From: an uncultured Spirochaetota bacterium
Lineage (GTDB): Bacteria; Spirochaetota; Spirochaetia; Treponematales; Rectinemataceae
Assembly: GCA_903821875.1 (NCBI GenBank)
Contig: CAIJMU010000131.1
Location: 1-64,000, forward strand
Direction: 5' to 3'
DNA: 64,000 bases
Shown: one piece after another, positions 8,895 through 64,000 of the stretch
Position numbering within the stretch: position 1 is the stretch's first letter
Layout of the letters: every line of letters begins with the position of its first letter
Made by a program: the position numbers and the translations under genes
Notes under the pieces: generated by a model
What the model was told of the DNA's origin: nothing
The model's input: the letters and a program-made list of their open reading frames with translations, nothing else
The model's database searches: none

Positions 8895-11258
8895 ATGACC
8901 CGTCCAGACACCCCCCCCGCCCCGAAGCCCCGCCCTGGAACAATAGGCACAGTTGTCATCTTCATGATCCTGATGATGATCACAGCCCTGTCGTCCTGCA
9001 ATGGCCTCGGCCAAGGCCGCTACTACTCGGCTACCATCTCCGGCTACGTCAACGAGTCGAAGCTTGACGCCAACGGCAACACCGTCGGCGTCAATGGCGC
9101 CCAGGTTTCCATCTACCTCGTGGATCCTTCCTTGAACGCGAAGGCAGTCCCCTCGATCGTGACGAGCAGCATGACCAGCGGCAACAACGCCGGCTACTGG
9201 AGCCACAAGGTCATGTGGCAGACCGCCACCCCGAGTTTTGCCGACGAGGGCGACTCCGGCACAGTCTGGGTCAAGGTGATGAGCAAGGGCTATTTTCCCC
9301 AGACAGTCGAGGTGAACGGGATACTCTCCGACGCAAGCAATGTGGTGTCAACCATAGCCCTGGTCAAGATCGTCACCACCGAACTCAAGGGCCGGGTAGT
9401 GAACAAGGACGGAGCCGGCGTCAATGGCGTCAACGTCGTACTCGACCTCATGTCGACAGAGGACAACGAGGCTGACTATTCGGCGACGACCGCTACGGTG
9501 GACGGCGTCATGGGCGTTTTCACCTTCTCCAACATTGCCTGGGAAGATACGGACTCGAAACCAAGACTGATCGGCAGCGATGGAAAGGCCACCGAGACGA
9601 TAAAGCTCTACATAGATGATCCCAATTACTACTCAGACAGCAACTCGGCGGACCCGCGATACAAGACTTTACAGACGGCCTTCGGCATCACAAGCGGGAG
9701 CAAGTTCAATCGGATCACTTCCAATCCGATTTCGGTCTATAGCGCTGCCTTTTCAGCCAAGCTCCTGAAGGGCCGCGTAGTGGATATCAAGAAGGCCACC
9801 GCTGCCCTTCTCGCTGGAACAGCGCTGGGAGCTTCCGACGGCATCAACAAGGTCACCATCGCCCTCCTCTTCCCCATCCAGGGCGGCAATCCTGTGACTG
9901 TCACGACGGGCCAGCTCGGCGGAGCCGACGGCTGGTTCCAGTTCGACACGACCAACGCAACCTGGACCAACAACAGGCCGACGCACAGTGATGCGACAGT
10001 CACTGCCGAGGGCGCATATGTCCAGGGCGCAGAGGACGACGACGTGACCACGGCACGCATCTACCTCAACGACGGAAACTTCTACTCGGACAATGACACG
10101 AAGCATCCCCTCGAAGTGGCTATCACCTCGGACGGCAGCATCGACCTCTCGACCCTCGCAACGCCTCTGGCGATCACTGCAGGCGACGCCCGCTTCAAGG
10201 TCGCCACCGTGAAGGGCCAGGTCCTGCTGCGGGATAAAGCGACCGGCGTGAACGGAGTGCAGGTCAGCCTCCAGCTCGCATCCGGGCAAAACGCGATCAA
10301 CGTGACAACAGCCAACGACGGGACGAGCGACGGCATCTTCACCTTCAAGGACGTCACCTGGACCGATACGAACCCGAGCGATCGCGCCAAAGAAGCTGAT
10401 ACCGAGGAAGCGCGGCTCTACATCAGCGACGCCAACTACAACTCCGATATCGTGCAGGCGAGCCCCCGGCTCATCACCCTTGATTCCTCCACAACCGTCG
10501 ACCTCACTTCGGGTGTCACCCCGACCCCCTTAAAGGTGACCATGTTCAATTTCAACTGCCCCAAGGTCTCCGGCAAGGTCGTCAATGTCGTCGCCCCCAA
10601 CAACGGCATTGCCGGACTGACCGTCGTCCTCCACCGACAAGCGGATGCCACTGCCAACAACGATGTCAACGCGACCACCGACAAGGACGGGGCCTTTACC
10701 TTCTCCAACGTGGGATGGACCAACACCAAGCCCTTGGGAGACAACTCGGATACAGCCGACATCAAGCTGTCGGTCAACAGTGCCGACTATGTTACAACTA
10801 CACCGATCGCGATCAAGACCGTATCCTCCGACAAGGACCTGGTCCTCACCGATTCCCTCGTCGCCAGGCGAACGACAGCCTGGAACTACTCGGTAACACT
10901 CACCGGAACCGCTTCCTACCGGGCAGCCGCGGCCGATCCTTCCAAGGACACCACCCTCGGCGGTATCACTGTTACCATCGATTCGGCCGACCTGGACGCG
11001 AGCCTGGTCACCAGCGCGCGCAAGCTCCAGGTCCAGACGGCTAACGATGGCACCTACACGGCTACCATCACCTGGACCCGGGCCCCAGACTATGTCCCGC
11101 CCTCCGACGCGGCTGCCAACGGTGGCGACAAGCTGCCCCTGAGCGTCGTCTTCTCCAAGGCCAAGGTGACCGGCACCACCGAACTCGGGTCCTTCACCAT
11201 CACCCAGGACCTCCTGTCCTGGAGCAACAACAACATCGTCAATTGCGTCTATCAATGA
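8895..11258 (+). CDS. repeat-containing lipoprotein embedded in efflux operon
   Basis: I do not recognise a named family. From the ATG at 8895, preceded by AAGGA, the protein has about 787 residues, a signal peptide and lipobox ALSSC (Cys35). An alternative ATG at 8832 overlaps the adaptor stop and adds 21 residues. The mature part has five or six tandem units of about 110 residues. Each opens with a strand such as LKGRVVNKDGAGVNGVNVVL or VKGQVLLRDKATGVNGVQVSL, and most carry an FTFSNIAW / FTFKDVTW / FTFSNVGW block about 45 residues on. This resembles carboxypeptidase-regulatory-like or SdrD-B beta-sandwich repeats. Three units contain Asp/Asn-rich stretches (YIDDPNYYSDSN, YLNDGNFYSDND, YISDANYNSD) that might bind calcium. 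An exported, probably surface or periplasmic lipoprotein is the safest call. Confidence 0.75.
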   Translation: MTRPDTPPAPKPRPGTIGTVVIFMILMMITALSSCNGLGQGRYYSATISGYVNESKLDANGNTVGVNGAQVSIYLVDPSLNAKAVPSIVTSSMTSGNNAGYWSHKVMWQTATPSFADEGDSGTVWVKVMSKGYFPQTVEVNGILSDASNVVSTIALVKIVTTELKGRVVNKDGAGVNGVNVVLDLMSTEDNEADYSATTATVDGVMGVFTFSNIAWEDTDSKPRLIGSDGKATETIKLYIDDPNYYSDSNSADPRYKTLQTAFGITSGSKFNRITSNPISVYSAAFSAKLLKGRVVDIKKATAALLAGTALGASDGINKVTIALLFPIQGGNPVTVTTGQLGGADGWFQFDTTNATWTNNRPTHSDATVTAEGAYVQGAEDDDVTTARIYLNDGNFYSDNDTKHPLEVAITSDGSIDLSTLATPLAITAGDARFKVATVKGQVLLRDKATGVNGVQVSLQLASGQNAINVTTANDGTSDGIFTFKDVTWTDTNPSDRAKEADTEEARLYISDANYNSDIVQASPRLITLDSSTTVDLTSGVTPTPLKVTMFNFNCPKVSGKVVNVVAPNNGIAGLTVVLHRQADATANNDVNATTDKDGAFTFSNVGWTNTKPLGDNSDTADIKLSVNSADYVTTTPIAIKTVSSDKDLVLTDSLVARRTTAWNYSVTLTGTASYRAAAADPSKDTTLGGITVTIDSADLDASLVTSARKLQVQTANDGTYTATITWTRAPDYVPPSDAAANGGDKLPLSVVFSKAKVTGTTELGSFTITQDLLSWSNNNIVNCVYQ

Positions 11259-12857: not shown

Positions 12858-14000
12858 ATGAAAGCGTACACGAAATTTGTAGCAATTGGCGCAATAGCGC
12901 TCGGTCTTGGGATTGGCATGGCAGCCTGCTCGTCCGGCCCCAAGGAGATCGTGATCGGCGGCGTCGGCCCCGTCACCGGTGAGGCCGCCACCTTCGGCGT
13001 GTCCACCAAGAACGCCTACGAGATGGCCATCGCCGAATGGAACGCCAACAAGGGCATCAACGGCAAGCAGCTCAAGCTCGTCTTCGCCGACGACAAGGGC
13101 GATCCCACCGAGGGTGCGACCGTCTACACCAAGCTTATCCAGCAGGACAAGGTCGTCGCCATTGTCGGCACCGTCATGTCCAAGGTCTCCCTCGCCGGAG
13201 CCCCGATCTGCCAGTCCAGCGGCATCCCGATGATCAGCCCCACCTCGACCAACCCCAAGGTCACCGAGGTCGGCGACTTCATCTTCCGTGCCTGCTTCAT
13301 CGATCCCTTCCAGGGCACGGTCGGCGCCCAGTTCGCCTTCAATGACCTCGGCGCCAAGAAGGCCGCGGCCCTCTTTGATTCCGGCAACGACTACGCCAAG
13401 GGACTCAGTGAGTTCTTCAAGGCCAAGTTCGAGGAACTCGGCGGCGCAGGTTCAGTCGTCGCCTTCGAAGGCCACGCCTCCGGCACCACCGATTTCAAGG
13501 CCCAGCTCACCAAGATCCTGGCCGCCAAGCCCGATGTCCTCTACGTCTCCGACTACTACCAGGACGTTGCCCTCATCGCCAAGCAGGCCCGTGAGCTCGG
13601 TTTCAAGGGCCCGATGGTCGGCGGCGACGGATGGGACTCCCCCGACCTCGTCAAGATCGGCGGAGCCGCTGTCGAGAACGGATTCTTCACCAACCACTAC
13701 TCTGCCGAGGATACCAGACCAATCGTCCAGGACTTCGTGAAGAAGTACACCGCCAAGTACGGTGCTGCTCCCGACGCCCTCGCCACCCTCGGATACGATG
13801 CCATGACCCTCATGCTCGACGCCATCAAGCGCGCCGGCAAGACCGACGGCAAATCCATCCGTGACGCGCTCAAGGCAGCCGACCTCGCCGTGGTTTCCGG
13901 CCAGGTCAAGTTCGATGCCAGCCGCAACCCCGTCAAGTCCGCGGTCATCATCGAGATCAAGGACGGCAAGCAGGTCTACAAGACCACCGTCAACCCGTAA
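12858..14000 (+). CDS. branched-chain amino acid ABC transporter, substrate-binding lipoprotein
   Basis: A 380-residue periplasmic binding protein with lipobox GMAAC (Cys24). It opens with EIVIGGVGPVTGEAATFG and has LivJ/LivK features throughout: VAIVGTVMSKVSLAGAPICQ, then IPMISPTSTNPKVTE and DVLYVSDYYQDVALIAKQA. It captures leucine/isoleucine/valine or a related amino acid or amide and delivers it to LivHMGF, encoded downstream. A 10-kb-scale search of the window shows a decayed copy of its central part at 61067-61236. A hairpin just after the stop separates it from livH. Confidence 0.92.
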   Translation: MKAYTKFVAIGAIALGLGIGMAACSSGPKEIVIGGVGPVTGEAATFGVSTKNAYEMAIAEWNANKGINGKQLKLVFADDKGDPTEGATVYTKLIQQDKVVAIVGTVMSKVSLAGAPICQSSGIPMISPTSTNPKVTEVGDFIFRACFIDPFQGTVGAQFAFNDLGAKKAAALFDSGNDYAKGLSEFFKAKFEELGGAGSVVAFEGHASGTTDFKAQLTKILAAKPDVLYVSDYYQDVALIAKQARELGFKGPMVGGDGWDSPDLVKIGGAAVENGFFTNHYSAEDTRPIVQDFVKKYTAKYGAAPDALATLGYDAMTLMLDAIKRAGKTDGKSIRDALKAADLAVVSGQVKFDASRNPVKSAVIIEIKDGKQVYKTTVNP

Positions 14001-60313: not shown

Positions 60314-60724
60314 TCAAGGCATGGAGGTGGCCGCGAAATCGATCCGGGCTACATCTGTCCGGGCAAAATCGCCGCCTTTGAACAACAAGCCCTCGTGGGC
60401 GACCGCAGCCAGGGCATAGGCGGCACAATCCCCGAAATTGAGTCCTGCTGGATGCTGCCCCTTCCCGTAACGCCTCCATGCGTCGAGGGCAACTTCAGCC
60501 TGGCTTGCATCGAAGGCAACAACCTCGATGGATGCCTCTGCCATCAACATGGCCAAGTCCCTGGCTCCGGCCTCCCCCTTTCGGGCTTCGACGACGATCG
60601 CGCTTTCGAGCCGGGTAACTGAGCTCATGAGCTTGCGTTCCGGTAGGGCGAGGGCGTCAATCATGGACGCCGCCTCAGCTTCGCCGAAGAGGATAGACAC
60701 GACCGCCGAGCTGTCAATCACCAT
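60314..60724 (-). CDS. vapC: VapC toxin, PIN domain
   Basis: A 136-residue PIN ribonuclease. Conserved acidic residues are in VIDSSAVVSIL (Asp4), LESAIVV (Glu), NFGDCAAYALA and FKGGDFARTDV. The ATG at 60724 overlaps the antitoxin gene by 11 bases, the usual coupling of antitoxin to toxin. Cleaves RNA, commonly tRNA, when freed from VapB. Confidence 0.93.
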   Translation of the reverse strand: MVIDSSAVVSILFGEAEAASMIDALALPERKLMSSVTRLESAIVVEARKGEAGARDLAMLMAEASIEVVAFDASQAEVALDAWRRYGKGQHPAGLNFGDCAAYALAAVAHEGLLFKGGDFARTDVARIDFAATSMP

Positions 60725-60971
60725 GTCCAAATACTCCAATTCCATCATAGCCAAGGATTTCGTCTGCGCTACGGGTATCATGGTCAGGGAGCGAGGCACA
60801 GTGCGACGCCAGTGCCGATAGACGCTCATGGAGTCGGACTTGGGCTTCGTCCTGGTCCTTTCGCTGGGTATCTAGAGCGTCTTCAATCACTTGGGTCATT
60901 GTCCGGCCTGTCCTGTGAGCTAGTTCACGCGCCTTTCTTTCTACGCTTGGACTTCTGATGCTGAGAGCCAT
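60714..60971 (-). CDS. vapB: VapB antitoxin
   Basis: An 85-residue antitoxin from ATG 60971 (GGAGGCATC upstream). The N-terminal ribbon-helix-helix-like part (LSIRSPSVERKARELAHRTG, then RTMTQVIEDALD) is the PSK/VapB-type (Rv0623-like) DNA-binding domain; the C-terminus wraps VapC. It autorepresses the operon through the operator just upstream. Confidence 0.9.
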   Translation of the reverse strand: MALSIRSPSVERKARELAHRTGRTMTQVIEDALDTQRKDQDEAQVRLHERLSALASHCASLPDHDTRSADEILGYDGIGVFGHGD

Positions 60972-61554: not shown

Positions 61555-62133
61555 ATGGCCACTATTATTTCCCTGTCCCAGCCTATTGAATCCGGTTCGA
61601 CTGTCCGCTATCCGGACAATGCTGCCTTGTCCGGCACCGACTGGACAGGAACCTGGGATCTCGGCAGGACCGGGTCCCCGCGATTCAGTTTCCTCCGTTT
61701 TCTTCCTGACGAGATCCATCCTTTGCTGTCACCGCTGCTCGAGGCGCAGGGGACGAGCTTTCCCCAGTGGCTTAGTGCGCTCGATGTGTCGATCGCACAC
61801 GATGGTATCGAGCCCTGGTGCGTGATTCTTTTCGACCGCCTCCTGCCCCTCCAGGACCACGCGGTCGAGCGAAGGAAGCATCCCCTCGATTATCGCGGCA
61901 TCACCTATCTCATGGCGCGTGAATGGATGCCCGAAGTCCTTCCTCCGCTCGGAGGTTTCATCGCAATAGTGAAGGAGGCGATGCGGCCCGAGGCTCCGGA
62001 TGAGGAGCCTTTTACGACTGTCTGGAAATCGATCAAGGACCTTTCTCCCGATCGGCGCTGGCTCTGCCTCGTCAGGGCTCCGGACAGGCTTGGCACGGTC
62101 TATCCCAGGCTTCACTGGAATGGGTTGGTGTGA
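61555..62133 (+). CDS. unknown protein upstream of MoxR ATPase
   Basis: A 192-residue protein from ATG 61555 (GGGGG upstream). It has no signal peptide or membrane span. Sequence includes WDLGRTGSPRFSFLRFLPDE and GIEPWCVILFDRLLPLQDHA, and a C-terminal RRWLCLVRAPDRLGTVYPRL. No family was recognised. Its end overlaps the next gene's start by 14 bases, so it is probably a functional partner of the MoxR-like ATPase. Confidence 0.7.
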   Translation: MATIISLSQPIESGSTVRYPDNAALSGTDWTGTWDLGRTGSPRFSFLRFLPDEIHPLLSPLLEAQGTSFPQWLSALDVSIAHDGIEPWCVILFDRLLPLQDHAVERRKHPLDYRGITYLMAREWMPEVLPPLGGFIAIVKEAMRPEAPDEEPFTTVWKSIKDLSPDRRWLCLVRAPDRLGTVYPRLHWNGLV

Positions 62134-63646
62134 GTTGAACACCACCACCGCGCCAGAGGCGCACCTCAGGTCCATCGGAGCCTATGGTTTCGACGAACGG
62201 GCACCGCAGATCCTTGCGGCCCTAGTCACGGAAGACCCAATGCTGCTCATCGGGGCATCGGGGACGGGCAAGACCTTCCTCCTCAACTCGCTGTCCGAGG
62301 CTCTCGGCCTCGAGCACCGGCACTACAATGCGAGCCTTTTGTCCTTCGATGACCTGGTGGGCTTTCCATTCCCCGACGCAGAGCGGAAATGCGTCGAGTT
62401 CCTCGAGACTCCTGCGACGGTCTGGGGTGCCGAGTCGGTCCTTGTCGACGAGATCAGCCGCTGCAAGCCAGAGCACCAGAACAGGCTCTTCAGCCTGATT
62501 CACGAGCGGAGGCTACAGGGCATCGCACTCGGCCGTCTCCGCTACCGCTGGGCTGCGATGAATCCCTGTTCTGCGGACCAGGACGCAAGCGGAGCCTATT
62601 CGGGTTCCGAGCCCCTCGATCAGGCGCTCGCCGATCGCTTCGGGCTCTTCATCCAGGTGGACGACTGGGCCGGTCTCGACGAGAAGGACCAGCTGCTTAT
62701 CGCCGATCCTTCGGGGGAAGGTACGTCTTCGCCACGGAACGAGGCCCTCAAGCGAGAGCTTGCGCGCTGGAGGGCCGACTTCGAGGAGGGGCTTCCACGC
62801 TGCCCCAGGGCCATCGTCAGTTACGCCAGCTCGGCGGCGACCTTCCTCAACGGCAACGGTCTCCGGGTTTCTCCACGAAGGGCGCGTTTCCTTTCCCGCA
62901 GCCTGTTCGCAATTACGATCATTACGGGAGGTCCCCTGGAGAAGGCCTTCCGGAACACCCTGGCGGCCAGCCTGCCCCAGCCGACCTGGGGCGCTTCGGT
63001 CGATCAAGCCCTGATCGAAGCTGCCCACAGGCTGGCCTGGGACTCCAGCTTCCTCGCCGGCGATGAACAGTGGATTCACCACTTCCACACCGAGCGTTTG
63101 CTGCTCCGCAAGCTCAAGCTCCTCCTCAAGGCCCCGAGCCCCGATGCGGCTACCCAGGCCATCGCCGAGTTCATTGGCAGCGAGGCACCCGAACGGGTGG
63201 CAGCTTTCTGCCCCCTTATCAACGCAGGAACCGAAACCGACAACGGGCAGACGGGCCGGAAGCTTGTGATGGACTACTACGGTCCCCGCGTCGGCCAGGG
63301 GGGCGGAGCCCTCTCCGGAAAGCACCTAACCCATGTCGACCGTCTTGGCGCCTATGCCGCAAGGGAAGCCGCGGTCGAGGCCGTGCGGAGCGGAGCCAGG
63401 GAATGCAAGATCATCCTCGCCTACGCTCCGAACATCCACGAGCCCCTCGAACTTGCTTACGAGATGGAAGGACGCGGCGTGACGCGTGGCAGATCTGACT
63501 TCAGTCACAGGGTGCTCCGACAGCGGTGCAGCGGTTTTATCATCGACGATTCCTGGGCAACTGGTACGCATTTCTGGGATGAGGCTGCCCCTTGGAACGC
63601 TGGACAACGCTGTCCGCCGCCCCCGCCTCCTGACCACCGAGGATGA
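62120..63646 (+). CDS. MoxR-like AAA+ ATPase
   Basis: About 508 residues from ATG 62120; a TTG at 62135 is an alternative. Walker A GASGTGKT is at 45-52 and Walker B SVLVDEISR near 107-114, followed by the MoxR-type CKPEHQNRLFSLIHERRLQG and WAAMNPCSAD. The C-terminal 200 residues are unlike ordinary MoxR and unassigned. MoxR proteins act with partner proteins to mature metal or cofactor enzymes. The closing CPPPPPPDHRG looks unusual and a frameshift near the end cannot be ruled out. Confidence 0.82.
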   Translation: MGWCELNTTTAPEAHLRSIGAYGFDERAPQILAALVTEDPMLLIGASGTGKTFLLNSLSEALGLEHRHYNASLLSFDDLVGFPFPDAERKCVEFLETPATVWGAESVLVDEISRCKPEHQNRLFSLIHERRLQGIALGRLRYRWAAMNPCSADQDASGAYSGSEPLDQALADRFGLFIQVDDWAGLDEKDQLLIADPSGEGTSSPRNEALKRELARWRADFEEGLPRCPRAIVSYASSAATFLNGNGLRVSPRRARFLSRSLFAITIITGGPLEKAFRNTLAASLPQPTWGASVDQALIEAAHRLAWDSSFLAGDEQWIHHFHTERLLLRKLKLLLKAPSPDAATQAIAEFIGSEAPERVAAFCPLINAGTETDNGQTGRKLVMDYYGPRVGQGGGALSGKHLTHVDRLGAYAAREAAVEAVRSGARECKIILAYAPNIHEPLELAYEMEGRGVTRGRSDFSHRVLRQRCSGFIIDDSWATGTHFWDEAAPWNAGQRCPPPPPPDHRG

Positions 63647-63675
63647 GCCTCCTCCCTCGCAACCCCAGGGCATTG

Positions 63676-63704
63676 TTGACAGATCGACTGGCACGTCGTA
63701 CGAT
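63676..63704 (+). promoter_or_regulatory. promoter for MoaD-like gene
   Basis: TTGACA (63676-63681), 17 bases, TACGAT (63699-63704), 43 bases before the start of the MoaD-like gene, in the gap after the MoxR gene. Confidence 0.6.
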
Positions 63705-63747
63705 TCAGCGGAACTGCAAGTTTCGGCTTTGTGTGCAGGAGCTGCCG

Positions 63748-63981
63748 ATGAGAATCAGGGTCTATGCCCCTCCCTTTGCAGACTTGTCCTGCATCGATGA
63801 AGAGGGCTTTATGGAACTCCCCGACGGAGCCACCCTCAACGATCTTTTCAAGACCCTCCACCTACCCTTGCGACACGGGATGGTGGCGTTCAGTATGGTT
63901 AACTATGAGAAATCGAAGCTGTCGCGCCTCCTGGCCGAAGGCGACACGGTAAGTTTTGTTTCCCTCCTCGCGGGAGGTTGA
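63748..63981 (+). CDS. MoaD/ThiS-like sulfur carrier
   Basis: A 77-residue ubiquitin-like protein from ATG 63748 (AGGAG upstream). It has the beta-grasp pattern RIRVYAPPFADLS, then LPDGATLNDLFKTLHLP and GDTVSFVSLLAGG with the C-terminal Gly-Gly needed for thiocarboxylation. Family members supply sulfur for molybdopterin or thiamine. A MoaD-type role in a molybdenum/tungsten enzyme operon is favoured by the MoxR ATPase upstream, but the rest of the operon lies beyond the window. Confidence 0.82.
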   Translation: MRIRVYAPPFADLSCIDEEGFMELPDGATLNDLFKTLHLPLRHGMVAFSMVNYEKSKLSRLLAEGDTVSFVSLLAGG

Positions 63982-64000
63982 CCGCTCATCCCCACATTGG

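Follow-up and report, generated by a model that had tools for sequence, protein, structure and literature searches.

We asked whether three neighbouring genes at the end of a spirochaete locus, which encode a 192-residue protein, a MoxR-like ATPase with an unusual C-terminus and a MoaD-like protein, belong to one unit for the maturation of a tungsten or molybdenum oxidoreductase, as an earlier note on this DNA had proposed. The window, meaning the whole stretch of 64,000 bases that was analysed, comprises bases 1-64000 of contig C131 (64854 bases) in genome G000, a draft assembly in 193 contigs that is 97% complete; the contig continues for 854 bp beyond position 64000. All three genes are real, with their ORFs present at 61555-63981 (Table 1). 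Our analysis indicates that the region holds two unrelated, adjoining units, a pair of genes for a MoaD-like protein and an aldehyde ferredoxin oxidoreductase (AOR) and a MoxR::MetK ORF that is a broken copy of a longer gene cassette, whether the cause of the break is biological or lies in the assembly. We put the probability of this reading at roughly 0.8.

Table 1. Features at the end of the window and in the contig sequence just beyond it.
Feature	Coordinates	Strand	Basis
192-residue orphan protein, probable gene	61555..62133	+	codon usage; directly upstream of ATPase ORF
MoxR AAA+ part of fused ORF, about 357 residues	62138..63211	+	identity to G375, L038; Walker A/B
C-terminal third of MetK-like protein, in-frame with MoxR part	63212..63646	+	PF02773; G375, L038 alignments
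MoaD/ThiS-like sulfur carrier, 77 aa, C-terminal Gly-Gly	63748..63981	+	PF02597; relatives' genes upstream of AOR
Aldehyde ferredoxin oxidoreductase, first 281 residues	64009-64854, cut by contig end		NF007354

The metal-pterin enzyme that had been predicted downstream is indeed present: an AOR gene begins on the same contig just after the MoaD-like gene. The sequence up to the contig end covers the N-terminal domain, with an NF007354 match of 6.1e-45 over residues 5-228 of those available, and the protein is 80% identical to the AOR of genome G003, which has a 689-codon open frame. A start of the MoaD-like gene at 63748 is more likely than one at 63643, because relatives' genes align over exactly the resulting 77 residues. 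Its product ends in LLAGG, scores just under the cut-off for Pfam ThiS PF02597 (5.1e-4; 21.0 bits against 22.5), and is 49-69% identical to MoaD-like proteins encoded directly upstream of orthologous AORs in six related genomes. Iyer et al. (2006; PMC1779556) described MoaD genes strictly adjacent to AOR genes, with a sporadic distribution, and proposed that they serve the synthesis of the tungsten-pterin cofactor; MoxR is not mentioned in that paper. We read the sequence from 63748 onward as an ordinary MoaD-AOR pair, in which the sulfur carrier would serve pterin-cofactor synthesis for the downstream tungsten or molybdenum enzyme. The forecast of an AOR was correct, but the arrangement is ordinary and has been known since 2006. 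On other contigs of G000 there are at least six further AOR-like matches.

The 192-residue ORF is probably a gene, because codon scoring gives a positive value in that frame alone (0.075, as against -0.43 and -0.51 in the others). The protein matches no family in Pfam, NCBIfam or PADLOC. A check of homologue neighbourhoods, as the earlier note had suggested, gave a single weak match among 393 genomes of the phylum, with internal stops and in a sugar-metabolism neighbourhood. Since no relative was found in the phylum genomes, in plasmids or among 920 ORFs from the cassette regions described below, the protein stays an orphan; its single-sequence fold prediction was unusable (mean pLDDT 40). Just upstream of this gene, at 60314-60970 on the minus strand, lies a VapBC-type toxin-antitoxin-like ORF pair, consisting of a PIN-like protein and an Rv0623-like antitoxin (both assigned by eye).

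The ATPase ORF, with a probable TTG start at about 62138, ends at 63646 and matches Pfam AAA_5 (4.7e-9) and AAA_3 (2.1e-6), with a bpMoxR match below cut-off. Its first part has a MoxR-type AAA core with Walker A (GASGTGKT) and Walker B (VLVDEISR) motifs, is 57% identical to the MoxR protein of another spirochaete genome, G375 (residues 4-354), and 69% identical to that of locus L038, and lacks the C-terminal ~100 residues of its family. The unusual C-terminus that the note had pointed out is real and identifiable: residues 362-445 match PF02773 (S-AdoMet_synt_C; 2.8e-19), residues 361-447 match solved S-adenosylmethionine synthetases with E down to 1.3e-13, and the segment aligns to residues 232-363 of a MetK-like protein in G375 (53% identity; 64% to L038). 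Judged by this homology, it is the C-terminal part of a paralogue of MetK, the enzyme that normally makes S-adenosylmethionine. The ORF lacks the N-terminal and central domains carrying His14, Asp16, Lys17, Glu42, Asp118 and Lys165 (residue numbers follow E. coli MetK and were assigned from motifs in a canonical sequence). We considered a frameshift at the MetK end but discarded it, since relatives align in frame with the tail, GTHFWDEAAPWN. No orthologue of the full-length ORF was found in 99 related genomes, where searches with the MetK part hit MetK genes and those with the ATPase part reach only distant MoxR proteins, and a wider search of the phylum gave one true relative of the ATPase, that of G375.

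In G375, separate genes encode MoxR, a 161-aa protein (p161), a protein that has both HExxH and VWA motifs, and a MetK paralogue of full length. Scanning an 84,980-species genome collection with the window and G375 ATPases as queries, we found 67 loci with relatives of the ATPase in about a dozen phyla, all from genomes titled as metagenome-assembled. The order MoxR-p161-VWA-MetK-like is found at 47 of the 67 loci, and at 9 of the 67 MoxR-p161-VWA is followed by a contig end nearby. At four Opitutae loci the place of the MetK-like gene is taken by a canonical-type MetK directly upstream, as it is at the partial locus L103. The MetK of the cassette is dedicated to it: each of these four genomes has another copy away from the locus, 55-57% identical to the one at L080. 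At four other loci (L044, L047, L051 and L099) the MetK-like gene is accompanied by an additional canonical MetK no more than a few kb away. HExxH is present in the VWA protein of all 56 complete copies and DxSxS in 55 of them. The predicted fold of the ~160-aa protein has a confident core (mean pLDDT 81), with no PDB match better than E 3.7.

Several loci depart from this layout. L046 (4333-5942) appears to hold a decayed cassette, with MoxR and a piece of p161 followed by 9.7 kb of free sequence, and L104 (10013-10193) has only a MoxR fragment, with room for the missing cassette genes. L085 has MoxR-p161-VWA but no MetK, although the sequence continues for 9.7 kb after MoxR. A putative viral contig from IMG/VR (L120, 1322-4316) carries genes for MoxR, a protein of ~180 aa and one with HExxH in cassette order, without MetK. 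Genes of the N-formylglutamate amidohydrolase family were observed near the cassette at L038, L041, L042 and L083. We found no description of a cassette combining MoxR, VWA and MetK in family libraries or in the open-access literature that was searched, and the four-gene cassette is apparently undescribed before.

The closest relative of both halves of the window ORF is L038. The alignment to this locus ends at 11050 and resumes at 13826, so that 2775 bases have no counterpart in the window copy, and no residue is lost at the seam between MoxR and MetK. The window copy has no p161 and no VWA protein, and its MetK-like part lacks the N-terminal two thirds; neither the VWA protein nor the MetK N-terminal part was found anywhere in G000, which has a canonical MetK on contig C97. 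In a MoxR tree the window sequence groups with one from Holophagaceae (100/99) and not with the other spirochaete, G375, a position that fits horizontal acquisition of the cassette without proving it. We propose that 62138-63646 is the remnant of a cassette of MoxR, ~160-aa, HExxH/VWA and MetK-like genes, probably acquired horizontally. The absence of ~2.8 kb, reaching from the C-terminus of MoxR into the central region of MetK, would have left an in-frame MoxR::MetK-C fusion. The C-terminus in which the note saw a maturation factor is instead the tail of the cassette's last gene, joined to the ATPase by loss of the intervening genes, and no domain built for maturation. Because the VWA partner and the larger part of the adenosyltransferase active site are missing, the window cassette should be inactive.

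Such a layout could come from a decayed cassette or from a deletion in the assembly. Gene content and order, the residue pattern and the gap in the assembled window are shown directly, while mobility, function, substrate and a possible biological cause of the deletion are inferred. If the assembly is at fault, the broken-cassette reading takes a different form, in which the organism has an intact cassette from which ~2.8 kb was dropped. A draft genome in so many contigs, the seam without a lost residue and the undamaged look of both ORF halves would fit such an artefact. The missing genes, however, lie on no other contig of this nearly complete assembly, and other apparently shortened copies exist (L046, L104); we regard an artefact as a minority possibility that nonetheless carries real weight. 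The fusion has an open frame, conserved motifs in both halves and normal codon usage, so that any real decay would be recent; alternatively, the fusion may be retained. These same features, together with the canonical MetK elsewhere in the genome, would suit a new functional protein in which a MetK domain, attached to a MoxR motor, would act on the MetK of the host. We think this very unlikely, as the fusion is unique among the 67 loci and has neither the family-conserved MoxR C-terminal region nor a VWA partner.

Comparison of the two units across genomes also bears on the claim that the ATPase, with its C-terminal domain as a maturation module, and the 192-residue protein mature the AOR. The proposal draws on the close spacing of the genes on one strand and on the assistance that MoxR proteins give to metal insertion in other systems (PMC9976466, PMC13036017). 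Against it, no AOR, MoaD or 192-residue protein occurs at any of the 67 loci with ATPase relatives. Orthologous AORs in G003, G010 and G037 (80%, 70% and 68% identical) are each preceded immediately by a MoaD-like gene. Within 8-9 kb on each side of these three pairs there is nothing related to the ATPase, to the MetK-like protein or to the 192-residue protein. Moreover, the ATPase has lost the VWA partner that such MoxR pairs use, and as assembled the ORF is a poor candidate for AOR maturation because it also lacks most adenosyltransferase residues. We consider maturation of the AOR by these genes very unlikely, and the earlier note needs correcting on this point: that a MoxR gene adjoins an AOR gene at this locus is no pointer to maturation.

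With the window locus read as an AOR pair beside a broken cassette, lasting interest attaches to the intact four-gene cassette and its dedicated MetK paralogue, of which the window holds a damaged copy. The MetK-like enzymes are homologous to MetK over their full length (TIGR01034, PF00438/PF02773) and form a clade apart from canonical MetK (100/100), with two members scoring 101.6 and 164.6 bits against a metK equivalog cut-off of 309.4. The clade keeps H14, D16, E42, D118, D163, K165, D238, R244, K245 and K265, and by alignment the residues for ATP, Mg and tripolyphosphate are kept. The full methionine pocket, Glu55, Gln98 and Lys269 together with Asp238, is not: E55 is lost in 47 of 47 sequences, 6 of 47 retain Q98 and a His replaces K269 in 42 of 45, with Asp238 kept in all 45 sequences that reach that position. 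In human MAT, whose pocket residues we equated with E55, Q98, D238 and K269 by an alignment-based reading, the equivalents of E55 and Q98 contact methionine (PMC7271947). It is plausible from these substitutions that the enzyme is an adenosyltransferase for a substrate other than methionine. The substrate may nonetheless be methionine, because Asp238 is retained along with most of the catalytic residues, and in human MAT2A loss of the Gln98 equivalent, Gln113, is mild on its own (PMC6850014). A viral scan with the G375 MetK-like protein gave no match. MetK matches from phages and plasmids lay below 60% identity, and the one phage case compared at each residue is canonical.

We tentatively suggest, at well under even odds, that the cassette is a new MoxR-VWA system built around a repurposed MetK that adenosylates a non-methionine substrate, and that it has spread horizontally among uncultured bacteria of about a dozen phyla. 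If the change in the pocket does mean a different substrate, the cassette would link a new ATP-driven adenosylation chemistry to a MoxR-VWA machine. MoxR-VWA pairs remodel partners and insert metals, as in NorQ/NorD (PMC9976466, PMC13036017), and by analogy the intact cassette is predicted to be a remodelling machine of this kind, a mechanism that we rate only a little short of an even chance. The partner is probably the MetK-type enzyme or the target of its product, because a dedicated MetK is present in nearly every complete copy. MoxR-VWA would activate, remodel or insert metal into this dedicated enzyme or that enzyme's target. For its part, the MetK-like enzyme would work through ATP and tripolyphosphate chemistry, and its acceptor is perhaps not methionine.

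The intact cassette could instead be an anti-phage or conflict system, in which MetK makes a nucleotide-type signal or feeds a modification. Its patchy spread over about a dozen phyla, a WYL-type regulator-like ORF at 5 loci and the MoxR-p180-VWA copy on a putative viral contig are consistent with such a role, and MoxR-vWA conflict systems are known (PMC7159879). The described systems of this type have no MetK, however, the words MetK and synthetase being absent from that paper; PADLOC models gave only short P-loop matches (best 8.5e-5 over 43 residues), and 76 neighbours of the cassette were mixed, with no clear enrichment in defence genes as judged with no background set for comparison. We consider a conflict role unlikely.

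The sequence from 63748 onward shows no difference from the MoaD-AOR pair of Iyer et al. (2006; PMC1779556). The cassette enzyme shares with MetK (TIGR01034) its full-length homology and its ATP, Mg and tripolyphosphate residues, but the E55, Q98 and K269 positions are changed. Like NorQ/NorD, CbbQ/CbbO and RavA/ViaA (PMC9976466, PMC13036017, PMC3893208), the cassette encodes a MoxR-class AAA+ ATPase with a VWA protein; unlike them, it also includes a MetK paralogue and a protein of ~160 aa, and HExxH is found in its VWA protein. The window copy is without the VWA protein. With the MoxR-vWA ternary conflict systems (Kaur et al., 2020; PMC7159879) the cassette shares a patchily distributed operon of MoxR, vWA and an accessory enzyme, but its match to the bpMoxR profile is below cut-off and its accessory enzyme is MetK-like.
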